64,000 bases of DNA from Glaciecola sp. (GTDB lineage Bacteria > Pseudomonadota > Gammaproteobacteria > Enterobacterales > Alteromonadaceae). The notes beneath the pieces were generated by a model that was given only the letters and a program-made list of their open reading frames with translations, was not told the DNA's origin and made no database searches. Shown here one piece after another: positions 31,769 through 39,832 of this stretch; within the stretch, counting starts at the first letter, position 1, and the number at the start of each line of letters is the position of its first letter. The stretch lies in the NCBI GenBank assembly GCA_023268935.1, contig JALRKK010000099.1, positions 1 to 64,000 of the forward strand, written 5' to 3'. Made by a program: the position numbers and the translations under genes.

Positions 31769-33085
31769 TTAATTTGCAACTTGTAATGTAAAGACTTTGC
31801 TGTTGCGAGTAAAGTTATACAACTCTTTTTTGGCAGTTGGTAAGTCTGCTACATCGCCAGGTTGAAAACCTTGCTCCATAAACCAATGTGCGGTGAGTGT
31901 AGTGAGCACAAATAAGGTGGTGAGGCCGCTCTGCTGGGCTTCATTGATGAGTGCTTCAAGCAAGCGCTCGCCTCTGTTTTTTCCTCGGTAATCACTGTGG
32001 GTAGCCACACAAGCAACTTCGCCACAAGACTCGTCTGGATAGGGATACAACGCTGCGCACGCAATGATCATACCGTCACGCTCAATGACCGTAAAATGGT
32101 CTATTTCATTTTCGAGGCGTTCACGGGAGCGCTTGACTAAAGCACCGCTTTCTTCAAGCGGTTTAATGAGTTGTAATATTCCGACTACATCTTCAATTGT
32201 CGCTGGCCGCAACTGTTCATAGTGGTTTTCGGTTACTAACGAACCGGTGCCATCTCGGGTAAATAATTCTTTGAGTAATGAGCCATCAATATTGTAGCTA
32301 ACACAATGAGAGCGTTCAGTACCATTTGCTACACTGTGATATAGGGCGTTGAGCACATTGGGTTCGTTGATTAGGGCATCTTGTTCGAGTAAGGTTTCTA
32401 ACTGTAATAACGAAACGTTGCGCAGCAATCGGTCTTGATTATCAATTAAGCCTTTGTGCTCCGAAAACGCAATCAATTTATCTGCCTCCAATATACGAGC
32501 AGCTTCAACGGCAACGTCTTCATGAGAAAGATTAAACACTTCACCTGTTGGAGAATAACCAATTGGTGAAAGCAAAACGATGAAACCATCGTTTAAGTGA
32601 TTGGTGATACCGCTTTTATCGATACGGCGTACTTGACCTGAATTTTCAAAATCGACACCATCGCGCACCCCGATAGGTTTTGCTACAACCAAATTACCAG
32701 AAGCAACTCGCACATCGGAACCGTGCATGGGGGAGTTGGCTAGACCCATAGTCAACAATGCTTCAATCTGAGCCCTAACCGAACCCGCGGCATCTTGCAC
32801 GCACGCAAGAGTGGGTTTGTCAGTGATACGAATGTCATCACGGTAATGTGAATCAAATCCGCGCATCGCAACACGTTCCTCAATTTGAGGGCGAGCACCG
32901 TGCACAATGACTAAACGGACACCCAACGAATTCAACAACGCAATATCATTAATAATGGTCGGTAAGTTAGGGCTTGCAACTGCTTCGCCGCTTAACATAA
33001 TGACAAACGTTTTACCTCGATGCGCATTAATGTACGGAGCGGAGTTGCGGAACAATGAAATCATGTCAAGGTGAGTCAGTACCAT
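31769..33085 (-). CDS. argA: amino-acid N-acetyltransferase (N-acetylglutamate synthase, classical AAK+GNAT form)
   Basis: AAK domain (FVIMLSGEAVAS; LVIVHGARPQIEERVA) and C-terminal GNAT (ACVATHSDYRGKNRGERLLEALI). Confidence 0.95.
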   Translation of the reverse strand: MVLTHLDMISLFRNSAPYINAHRGKTFVIMLSGEAVASPNLPTIINDIALLNSLGVRLVIVHGARPQIEERVAMRGFDSHYRDDIRITDKPTLACVQDAAGSVRAQIEALLTMGLANSPMHGSDVRVASGNLVVAKPIGVRDGVDFENSGQVRRIDKSGITNHLNDGFIVLLSPIGYSPTGEVFNLSHEDVAVEAARILEADKLIAFSEHKGLIDNQDRLLRNVSLLQLETLLEQDALINEPNVLNALYHSVANGTERSHCVSYNIDGSLLKELFTRDGTGSLVTENHYEQLRPATIEDVVGILQLIKPLEESGALVKRSRERLENEIDHFTVIERDGMIIACAALYPYPDESCGEVACVATHSDYRGKNRGERLLEALINEAQQSGLTTLFVLTTLTAHWFMEQGFQPGDVADLPTAKKELYNFTRNSKVFTLQVAN

Positions 33086-33101
33086 TGTTTATATCTCTAT
33101 A

Positions 33102-34490
33102 CTAACGAGTTTGCTGAGCCGCTAAAAAGGCAAGCGCGTGTTCGATGGCTTTGGTAACAGGCTCTTTACCTGTACCACCTAGGATATTGCGTTTATCAAC
33201 CAAATACTCTAATTGCAATATAGAGTATACATCGTCTTGAATAATAGAGGAAAACTGTTGTAACTCTGTGACAGACAGTTCCTCTAAAGCCTTACCTTGT
33301 TCGATGGCGTACACTACCGCTTGGCCAGAGATATCGTGTGCCGTTCTAAAAGGAATGCCGCGCTCGACCAAATAGTCTGCGAGTTCTGTAGCATTGGCAT
33401 AGCCTTGCTTAGCGGCCTGTTCACAACGAGCTTTATCCACTTGCATGCTTTCCAGTACTTCCACCGAAATCGCTAGACAAATGTGCCATTGCGTGACGGC
33501 ATCCATTGCACCTTCTTTATCTTCTTGCATGTCTTTATTGTATGCAAGAGGCAATCCTTTCATCGTGACAAGTAGTCCTTGCAGTGCACCAAATACGCGA
33601 CCACATTTGCCGCGCATTAACTCACACGCATCGGGATTTTTCTTTTGTGGCATCAAAGAAGAACCTGAGGTCACAGTATCGCCAAGCGTAATAAAGCCAG
33701 ATTCACCAGAATTGTAAAAAATTAAATCTTCCGCCATACGCGAAATATGCATCATCGAGGTGGAAGCACAAAACAACAACTCCAGAACAAAATCTCGGTC
33801 TGATACGGCATCCAATGAATTGGTACAAGGTCCAGAGAAGCCAAGTTGAGAGGCAATCTCATGACGATCCACTGGGAAGGTGGTTCCAGCAAGTGCGCCA
33901 CAGCCAAGTGGCGCATAATTCATGCGCGCAAGGGCATCATCAAGGCGTGATACATCGCGTTTGAACATCTCGACATACGCGAGCGCCCAATGGGCAAAAC
34001 GCACCGGTTGAGCACGTTGTAAGTGTGTATAGCCAGGGAAAATGACATCTTGCGTGCGTTGCGCAACATTGGCTAATGCCGTAATCACAGCAATCAGATC
34101 ACGGCGTAACATACTGACATGGTCTTTGACCCACAAGCGAAAATCTGTGGCTACCTGATCGTTACGCGAACGGCCAGTATGAAGTTTGCGGCCAATATCA
34201 CCGAGTTGTTTGGTCAACTCAGCCTCAACAAAAGCATGAATGTCTTCTTCATCGGTCTGCGAAAAATCCAATTCGCCCGCTTTTGCTTTGCCTAATAATG
34301 CGTCCAAGGCGGTTTCAATTTGGTCTTGTTCATCCGCCGTCAATACGCCGGCTTTAGCTATCGCACGAGACCAGATAATGGATCCCCAGATGTCTTGCGC
34401 AGCCATGACTTGGTCAAAGCCAATGGAATCGTTGACCTGACGAAACATGTTCGAACTACCTTGGGCAAAACGCCCACCCCATAATGCCAT
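33102..34490 (-). CDS. argH: argininosuccinate lyase
   Basis: [36 protein letters not shown] signature. Confidence 0.97.
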
Positions 34491-36677: not shown

Positions 36678-37463
36678 TTAAGCAGTTTCTGTCTGTTGTT
36701 GTGGATAAATAGTCGTGCCAAATCCGGTTAAGTCACCGCTCATGAGCGCCTGGGTATTTTGCCACGCCCCTATAATAACCGGTGCGGATAATTGACTGGC
36801 GGTGTCCAAAGCCGCTTGGACTTTGACAATCATGCCATCGGTAATAACACCATTTTCCACATACTGAGTGAATTCTTCAATGTTGAGTGTAGGTAACAAT
36901 TGTTTGTCAGCATTTAACACTCCAGGCACATCGGATAATAGTAATAAATCTGCTCCAATCAGCTGAGCAATAATAGTTGCAGCGTGGTCGGCGTTGACAT
37001 TTGCTAGGTCGCCAGTTTGCGTAGCTCCCACTGAATTAATAATGGGTAAGACGTTTAGATCCAGTAAAGCATTGAGAAAATCTGGTGTGCCTTGATGTGG
37101 GGTACCAACTTGACCTAACTCAGCATTATCTAAGGTACAATAAGTAATATTCCCATCGGCTAATGTTATTGCCGTTGCGGTGATTTGGTTTTGTAATGCA
37201 GCCGATAACAGTGCTGTACTGCATTGTCCAGCCAATGCAGCAGCAATATATGGCATGTCGTCTTTGGGGGTTACTCTAAGGCCATCCTGTTTTTGCGTGG
37301 TCTTGCCTAGTTTATCAAACAGTGCTTGGACTAATGAACCACCCCCATGTACTAGGACGACGGGTCTGTTTTTTTGTAACGCCTTTACATGTGCAAAAAA
37401 GTCAGTGTGATAATTGGGGTGTTCCAAAAAGGTACCGCCAACTTTGATGACTAAAGGTTTCAT
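36678..37463 (-). CDS. argB: acetylglutamate kinase
   Basis: MKPLVIKVGGTFLE...VLVHGGGSLVQALFDKLG; start refined to 37463, overlapping the argC stop. Confidence 0.95.
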   Translation of the reverse strand: MKPLVIKVGGTFLEHPNYHTDFFAHVKALQKNRPVVLVHGGGSLVQALFDKLGKTTQKQDGLRVTPKDDMPYIAAALAGQCSTALLSAALQNQITATAITLADGNITYCTLDNAELGQVGTPHQGTPDFLNALLDLNVLPIINSVGATQTGDLANVNADHAATIIAQLIGADLLLLSDVPGVLNADKQLLPTLNIEEFTQYVENGVITDGMIVKVQAALDTASQLSAPVIIGAWQNTQALMSGDLTGFGTTIYPQQQTETA

Positions 37464-38485
37464 TCTGCCTCCGCGATCAAACCTGAGTTCACAGCAAGGC
37501 CTTGAGTCAAATTTGCACATTGCAAAGCTTGTGCTGCCGCACCTTTAAGGACATTATCAATTGCGACGGTAATAACCGCATATTGTGAGGTTGCGTCATA
37601 AGCATAAAAAATATCGCAGTAGGGCGTATGCACAACATCGTCTAATTTTGGTGCGGAACGTCTCAAGCGAACCAAGCCACCCTTTGGATAGGCTTGTTCG
37701 AATGCACTATTTATGTGTTCAATCGTGGTATTGTCACTGCATTTGACCGTAATGGTGGCCAAGATACCGCGTTTAAATGTTCCTAAATGGGGAGTGAAGA
37801 TGACTTCGGTACCGAGATGCGCAGTGATCTCGGGCATATGGCGATGCGCCAAAATTCCATAGGCTTGCAAGCCGACCTCGCAGAAACTATTGCTCAGTGC
37901 AGCTTTGCGACCGGCCCCTGATACCCCTGATATTGCATTAATCACAGGTCTCACACTGGTATCAAGCAAGTTTGCATTAAACAGAGGTTTTAAGCCTGAT
38001 AAGCTTGCAGTTGGATAACAGCCAGGAACAGCAACCACTGAGGCACCACTGATCTGTTGTGGATACCACTCAGCGAGGCCATATACAGCCTGCTCCAACC
38101 AGATTTGGTCGGTATGGGCAAAACCATAATATTGCTCAAAGACACCTCTATCTTGTAGTCGATAGGCGCCCGATAAATCCAAAATCACTGCGCGTTTACC
38201 GGCAAGTGTTGGGATCCATTCATGTGAGGCTTCATGCGGCGTTGCCAAAAAAATCACATCGTAATCCCACGCTAGCTGTTCTAGTGCATCATCTTGCAGT
38301 GGGCATAGGGTAAGATCGGTCACGCCAATCAAGGCAGCGTGCAAATCACTTATGGATTTATGTGCATCTTGAGAGTTGGATGACACAAATATCGCATCCA
38401 ATACATAATTCGGGTGTTGGCTAATGAGTCTTACAAGTTCTGCGCCGGTGTATCCACTTGCGCCTATAATGCAGGTTTTGATCAT
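37460..38485 (-). CDS. argC: N-acetyl-gamma-glutamyl-phosphate reductase
   Basis: CIIGASGYTGAELVRLI; VPGCYPTASLSGLKPL. Confidence 0.97.
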   Translation of the reverse strand: MIKTCIIGASGYTGAELVRLISQHPNYVLDAIFVSSNSQDAHKSISDLHAALIGVTDLTLCPLQDDALEQLAWDYDVIFLATPHEASHEWIPTLAGKRAVILDLSGAYRLQDRGVFEQYYGFAHTDQIWLEQAVYGLAEWYPQQISGASVVAVPGCYPTASLSGLKPLFNANLLDTSVRPVINAISGVSGAGRKAALSNSFCEVGLQAYGILAHRHMPEITAHLGTEVIFTPHLGTFKRGILATITVKCSDNTTIEHINSAFEQAYPKGGLVRLRRSAPKLDDVVHTPYCDIFYAYDATSQYAVITVAIDNVLKGAAAQALQCANLTQGLAVNSGLIAEAE

Positions 38486-38500: not shown

Positions 38501-38554
38501 AAAGAAAAATCACTTTTATCCTTACCGTCAAATTATCAGGTAAAGATAAAAGTG
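38501..38554 (-). terminator. terminator-like hairpin in the argC 5' leader (possible attenuator)
   Basis: Minus strand CACTTTTATCTTTACC-TGATAATTTGAC-GGTAAGGATAAAAGTG (16-bp stem with one U-G wobble), then ATTTTTCTTTTTT, ending about 15 nt before the argC ATG. Confidence 0.6.
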
Positions 38555-38687
38555 TTGCTTTACAGAGTATTATCTAGCTTTCGTCAAATAACCTCATCCA
38601 GCAAGGCAGGGAGAGTGTTAAATCGGTACTGTGTCGTTAAAAAATCGAACATGTCTTAAGCTGTCAATTTATATATATATTTAACTA

Positions 38688-38715
38688 ATTATAGTAAAAT
38701 TGATTTTTTATGCAA
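38688..38715 (-). promoter_or_regulatory. sigma70-type promoter for argCBFGH-A: TTGCAT-16 bp-TATAAT
   Basis: Minus strand -35 TTGCAT (38715-38710), -10 TATAAT (38693-38688). Confidence 0.65.
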
Positions 38716-38735
38716 TAAAAATGTATTTATATTCA
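38701..38735. promoter_or_regulatory. tandem ArgR ARG boxes
   Basis: Minus strand TGAATATAAATACA (38735-38722) and TGCATAAAAAATCA (38714-38701), 12/14 each to TGAATWWWWATTCA, start-to-start 21 bp; second box overlaps the -35. Confidence 0.7.
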
Positions 38736-38869: not shown

Positions 38870-39832
38870 GTGAATGAATCAATGAACTGGCTATCTGAAC
38901 AAGAACTGCTCTCAAAACAACCCATTATCTCAAGCTGGTTTTTAGAACATGTACAGCAGGATGTATTGCATAGTAAGGAAGGGATTAAATTAGCGTATGC
39001 GTTCTATATTCCGGACAATGCCAAACAAGCGATTGTAATAAGCGCTGGAAGGGTAGAAAGTTATCTCAAATACGATGCACTGTTTTATGAACTGGCACAA
39101 CGAGGAATCGCGGTATTTTCATGTGACCATCGTGGGCAAGGCTTATCACAGCGAATAAGTCCTAACCGAATGCATGGGCATATTCTTGACTTTGCTACGT
39201 ATCGAGATGATTTGGCTGAGTTTATACAAGAAATTGTTCAGCCTCGGTTTGCGCAGCCGTGGTTATTGTGTCATTCGATGGGCAGTGCGATTGGTTTAAT
39301 GCTCGTACAACAACAGCCAAGCTGGTTTGCCAAAGTAGCCTTAACGGCACCTATGCTGGGCTTAAAAGCCCCGCTTCCAGAATGGTTAACTAAGCTTGTC
39401 TTAGCATTGGGCTTGATGGGCAGTAATTTATTGCAAAAACCTTTATATTTTCTAGGTCAAAAGGCCTACCTACCCGAACCATTTGCTGATAATAAGCTCA
39501 CCCATAGTCAAACTCGTTATGATATATTCCGTCAGCAACAACAGGCTTTCCCCGAGACTCAGTTAGGCGGAGTCACATATGCTTGGGTAGCTGCGGCAAT
39601 ACAAGCCTTATATACTCTCGAAAAACAAGCACCTCACACCGATATTCCGTTATTGTGCATCAGTGCTGGAGCAGATAAAATTGTAGACAATAAAGCTCAA
39701 CAACGCATCGTTAACCTCATGCCAAATGCGAGTTGGCATAGTATTGATGGAGCATATCACGAGCTATTATTTGAAACGGATGTGTACAGAAATGCGACAC
39801 TGGATGCAGTTATGACTTTTTTTGAGGAATAA
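38870..39832 (+). CDS. pldB: lysophospholipase / monoacylglycerol lipase-like alpha/beta hydrolase
   Basis: VISAGRVESYLKYDALFYELAQRGIAVFSCDHRGQGLSQR; CHSMGSAIG; GTG start or ATG at 38882. Confidence 0.82.
   Translation: MNESMNWLSEQELLSKQPIISSWFLEHVQQDVLHSKEGIKLAYAFYIPDNAKQAIVISAGRVESYLKYDALFYELAQRGIAVFSCDHRGQGLSQRISPNRMHGHILDFATYRDDLAEFIQEIVQPRFAQPWLLCHSMGSAIGLMLVQQQPSWFAKVALTAPMLGLKAPLPEWLTKLVLALGLMGSNLLQKPLYFLGQKAYLPEPFADNKLTHSQTRYDIFRQQQQAFPETQLGGVTYAWVAAAIQALYTLEKQAPHTDIPLLCISAGADKIVDNKAQQRIVNLMPNASWHSIDGAYHELLFETDVYRNATLDAVMTFFEE

Follow-up and report, generated by a model that had tools for sequence, protein, structure and literature searches.

The argC locus

The window, meaning the whole 64,000-nucleotide (nt) stretch of Glaciecola sp. 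DNA analyzed here, carries on its minus strand the arginine genes argC-argB-argF-argG-argH-argA; the genes downstream of argC were named from their translations. The closest genomes are Glaciecola-type genomes and that of Opacimonas viscosa. The argH gene and a full-length argA are separate neighboring genes here (31769-34490, minus strand); an argH(A) fusion has been reported for marine relatives (PMC1382215). Homologues of argC were present in 39 of the 41 genomes searched. The arginine synthesis of gammaproteobacteria is described as ArgR-controlled, and this genome encodes ArgR. The features upstream of argC are as follows.

37460-38485, minus strand: argC, with its ATG at 38485, the first gene of the series
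38688-38715, minus strand: predicted promoter, TTGCAT-16-TATAAT, from the sequence, with a presumed start site
38701-38735, minus strand: probable double ARG box, TGAATATAAATACA and then TTATTGCATAAAAAATCA, read by eye and unscored

The arrangement of the double ARG box is identical in all leaders of the genus. Counted from the start site expected for the predicted promoter, the argC leader is about 195 nt long and contains five further features.

38584-38652, minus strand: relict leader-peptide open reading frame (ORF), MFDFLTTQYRFNTLPALLDEVI followed by a stop, 22 codons with one Arg codon, from the alignment of leaders
38605-38619, minus strand: conserved block AACACTCTCCCTGCC with the core CUCCCUGCCU; its UCCC is invariant in 35 leaders
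38555-38604, minus strand: hairpin A (1:2), TTGCT...AGCAA plus an inner stem, from folding; it spans the former arginine codons
38511-38554, minus strand: terminator hairpin (3:4), CACTTTTATCTTTACC/GGTAAGGATAAAAGTG, 16 pairs including one G-U, 12-nt loop
38498-38510, minus strand: U tract ATTTTTCTTTTTT, from the sequence; a U tract is conserved in relatives

The first-pass annotation of this DNA had described the hairpin at 38554-38511 (16 pairs, 12-nt loop, then the U tract) and the 22-codon ORF with its single Arg codon, and we found both exactly as described. The conserved element, however, begins about 65 nt upstream of the structure noted there, with the block (38619-38605) and hairpin A (38604-38555). 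An intrinsic terminator lies between the predicted promoter and the first gene. Alone it folds with about -19 kcal/mol, and the whole leader folds better than its own shuffles (z = -2.9). A scan for terminators skipped this hairpin because loops were limited to 8 nt at most.

The terminator, hairpin A, and the block are conserved

The comparison drew on 140 argC-upstream loci from the family and the order, 135 of them distinct once duplicates were removed, and on 40 further argC-upstream leaders taken from the order. Leaders within one family are related, and the counts given here are not counts of independent events. Terminators better than -10 kcal/mol preceded argC in 61% of the 140 leaders versus 14% of shuffled ones. 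Within the terminator helix, double compensatory changes occurred at all 16 of the 16 pairs, and 91.8% of the cells in the alignment were paired. The hairpin is 25 to 74 nt from the ATG in the aligned relatives, which keep the U tract throughout. By these comparisons the argC-leader hairpin is real, far beyond a chance terminator.

A model (R2) built from 26 leaders, with the window's genus excluded, matched the window's leader at 38618-38503 (minus strand) with 52.2 bits (E = 1.5e-11), and it also matched the nine other loci of the genus and Alteromonas-like leaders that were not in its training set. No second convincing R2 site was found in the window's own genome. A weak match (E = 0.016) at 38899-38990 (minus strand), opposite the divergent hydrolase gene and present also in genome G004, is probably due to chance. 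Another model, R1, found a single strong site per genome, always before argC. No Rfam family (riboswitch, T-box, or other) reached its gathering score in the leader; the sole Rfam-level match was a chance microRNA, at 17.9 versus 70 bits. No plasmid copy of the leader was found.

The order of the element, with the block CUCCCUGCCU followed by hairpin A and a directly abutting terminator, was the same before argC in every member of the genus tested. Aligned leaders read CUCCCUGCCUNGCUAYGC, about ten bases, UCGACGA, UUGCGUAGCACGCUCUUUACCUUUG, and the terminator. In a nonredundant set of 29 leaders, nearly all had the block 58 to 62 nt before the terminator. Across relatives, the arms of hairpin A paired better with each other than with foreign arms (-9.7 versus -7.5 kcal/mol, P = 0.0002); its outer pairs are mostly conserved, not covarying. 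Hairpin A corresponds to the protector hairpin (1:2) of an attenuator, which overlaps the control codons.

The block, CUCCCUGCC at 38619-38605 (minus strand), is the best conserved stretch of the element, and no pairing partner has been assigned to it. Its reading frame shifts between clades, which places its conservation at the RNA or DNA level. In seven members of the genus (L005, L006, L007, L008, L009, L010, and L011), CACUC of the block is complementary to GAGUG in the loop of hairpin A; this candidate pseudoknot, seen in sequence only, is absent from the window's clade. A candidate pairing of the block with the 3′ arm of the terminator (0:4) was stronger than in shuffles (mean z of the block about -0.9, n = 29), but own arms did no better than foreign ones (P = 0.64). 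Two other roles, a boxA-like signal and masking of the ribosome site of argC, gave only clade-specific matches by eye and were dropped.

A tandem CGA leader peptide in relatives

A short upstream ORF (uORF) with an in-frame tandem CGA-CGA was found in 82 of the 135 distinct leaders, where about 1 was expected, and every one of these 135 leaders that contains CGACGA carries the tandem in frame within a uORF. In the full set the tandem occurred in 86 of 140 leaders; dinucleotide shuffling gave 1.0, and the antisense strand had 1. Examples of the peptides, each ending at a stop codon, are MNSITLTFDSLPSFASMLYRR (Paraglaciecola), MKMSTTIRR, and MLLFRRR. Of the 216 Arg codons that make up these runs, 201 (93%) are CGA, versus 14.9% of Arg codons in the window's genes. 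In relatives that can be aligned by sequence, the tandem mostly lies 28 to 33 nt before the terminator.

The tandem was present in 68 of 85 leaders from relatives with an ArgC identity of at least about 50%, in 11 of 33 from more distant members of the family, and in none of the 10 from the window's genus. At the level of the order it occurs in families f2, f6, f10, f12, f16, and f25, and it was absent from the leaders looked at from f3, f8, f9, f11, f18, f20, f21, and f27. CGA-CGA leader ORFs encoding unrelated peptides were also seen in other genera and families of the order (L018, L019, L023, L025, L151, L155, L169, and L184).

We infer that in these relatives the leader is a textbook-like leader-peptide attenuator. 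A ribosome translating the short peptide would run through the 5′ side of hairpin A until it met two slow CGA codons, some 30 nt short of the terminator. When arginine is present it would finish, hairpin A and the terminator would form, and transcription would stop; with arginine scarce it would stall on CGA-CGA, leaving hairpin A open and the terminator disfavored, and the arg genes would be read. In the Salmonella speF leader, a pair of consecutive Arg codons does sense arginine, even after a change to CGACGA (PMC6386406), and CGA pairs placed in the his leader are slow and de-attenuate (PMC4046918).

The CGA tandem is missing in the window and its genus

When the window's TTTGACGAAAG is aligned with the TCGACGA of relatives, the first control CGA has become a UGA stop (38586-38584), and a CGA (38583-38581) follows. 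The 22-codon ORF therefore stops exactly where relatives have an arginine control codon, and where successive arginine codons would be expected the window has UGA CGA and one distant CGA. The first-pass annotation judged classical attenuation not obvious at this locus; that holds for the window, which has no tandem Arg codons, but not for its relatives, whose CGA-CGA uORF occupies the homologous position. Because the first CGA became UGA, arginine would no longer be sensed in that way in the window's clade.

The ribosome site of the uORF is weak in the window, and the sister genome G009 has no ATG, GTG, or TTG start for the full 22 codons. Alternative starts in the window's clade (AUG AGG..., UUG CUG...) have no ribosome site and were set aside. 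Elsewhere in the genus, G002 keeps an ORF that closes with one CGA and a stop, and G005 has an ORF lacking Arg at that place. In five of the ten members of the genus the predicted promoter lies about 12 to 15 nt before the block; its position just before the block leaves G001, G003, G006, G007, and G008 with no AUG uORF. The same CGA-to-UGA change arose independently in 1 of 11 genomes of g17, a different genus within the order (L022; G025:C1:4927056-4927083, minus strand), where MNRFSSF and a stop stand against MNRFSSFRRDN in a sister.

The leader is nevertheless tightly conserved. Between the window's genome (G000) and that of the sister species (G009) it is 96% identical, with the first 80 nt unchanged, versus 41% at the fourfold-degenerate sites of argC, and across comparisons in which fourfold sites are 41 to 45% identical the leader is 96 to 98% identical. 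Identity dips to 60% at -200 to -161, the region of the uORF start, and is 100% at -120 to -81. By this measure the window's leader is under strong constraint despite the lost control codon. Gene conversion as the source of the identity was rejected: identity declines on both sides, with no clear tract.

Search for an antiterminator

A stem between GTAAAG and CTTTAC had been put forward as competing with the terminator. The two can pair, at about -4.6 kcal/mol, but no better than shuffled upstream sequence does (z = -0.2 to +0.1), and over 76 leaders there was no excess of 2:3 pairing; this proposal found no support. Nor did the 2:3 arms match each other better than foreign arms (P about 0.3). 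One Paraglaciecola-like subgroup and the group of G001, G003, and G006 were the only ones with strong 2:3 pairing. A conserved antiterminator (2:3) mutually exclusive with 1:2 and 3:4 was not found.

Interpretation

The comparison shows that the leaders are homologous, that the terminator and hairpin A are conserved, that relatives carry CGA tandems, that the first CGA has become UGA in the window's clade, and that constraint is strong; all switching behavior we infer from these sequences. The earlier proposal of premature termination on top of ArgR control is well supported by a covarying terminator, an abutting hairpin A, and their single-copy position before argC. We think it probable that this conserved element attenuates transcription of the arg operon, that it goes back to a leader-peptide attenuator for arginine, and that it is arginine-blind here, being coupled to translation or answering another signal. 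The RNA body would most likely still terminate part of the transcripts. Termination might be coupled to translation up to the UGA or be set by another signal, and the arginine response would be supplied by ArgR at the promoter. A stop at the control codon of the his leader gives 24- to 27-fold derepression (PMC4046918), so by analogy the UGA in the window may bias the leader toward read-through. Counting against this main reading are the lack of a conserved antiterminator, the weak ribosome site of the window's uORF, whose start has no counterpart in G009, and a degree of constraint that is odd in an attenuator deprived of its sensor.

If the element were decaying, its terminator merely cutting read-through by a fixed amount and regulation resting wholly with ArgR, then the loss of the sensor codon, the unconserved AUG in G009, and the lack of an antiterminator would all follow; however, 80 unchanged nt at near-saturated neutral divergence are not decay, and hairpin A is retained besides the terminator. 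We regard such decay as doubtful. We are similarly hesitant about an attenuator that has lost its peptide sensor and works as a peptide-independent switch or reads translation termination at the UGA. The genus may have turned the attenuator into a peptide-independent switch in which the RNA itself detects a ligand, tRNA, or protein. The promoters predicted close to the block, the missing AUG uORFs, the leader identity, and the possible CACUC/GAGUG pseudoknot point that way, but the start sites are predicted, the pseudoknot is missing in the window's clade and shows little covariation, and no Rfam family matches; we consider direct sensing unlikely.

A role of the hairpin in mRNA stability or in argC translation, instead of termination, could be read from the window, where the end of the U tract adjoins the argC ribosome site (AGGA, 38497-38494). 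Against it, the aligned relatives keep the U tract even though their hairpins stand at various distances from the ATG, and we think such a role very unlikely. Finally, the region is A+T rich and the stem pairs are mostly A-U, as a chance inverted repeat might have it, but covariation, the held-out model match, and the shuffles refute that explanation, to which we give practically no weight.

If a switch with a lost sensor does operate here, nature would have provided an example of a single RNA that exchanged one means of sensing for another. A leader peptide with CGA-CGA, if widespread before argC, would add arginine to the amino acids whose operons are attenuated. The window's genus offers a testable puzzle, an RNA conserved more tightly than the gene though its sensor codon is a stop.

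Comparison with known systems

The attenuation surveys consulted cover operons for His, branched-chain amino acids, Thr, Trp, and Phe and do not include arg. None of the six attenuators described for Shewanella is for arginine (PMC3223726), and PMC7815308 names no arginine peptide in its list for E. coli. The parts consulted of a survey of proteobacterial regulons (PMC5343134) and the main text of a survey of premature terminators (PMC2965389) give no arginine attenuator for this group. We found no argC attenuator in the open literature; an earlier prediction elsewhere is possible.

Like the gammaproteobacterial his, leu, ilv, thr, trp, and phe attenuators, the element in relatives has an ORF with control codons, a hairpin, an intrinsic terminator, and a matching operon; unlike them, it has no conserved 2:3 antiterminator, and the window has no control codons. 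The Salmonella speF leader (orf34/SpeFL) shares two consecutive Arg codons that sense arginine in a leader ORF, but it controls ornithine decarboxylase via Rho, translation, and RNase G, encodes another peptide, and is not an intrinsic-terminator attenuator of an arg operon. Arginine T-boxes also control arginine genes at the RNA level by arginine supply (PMC1262725), but they are tRNA-binding RNAs, and the argC leader has no Rfam match. The CGA tandem was in 0 of 4 leaders looked at from f18, which we take to be the Enterobacteriaceae. With the ArgR control of enterobacterial argC the locus shares an argR gene and, probably, ARG boxes over the promoter, to which the attenuator would be an addition.
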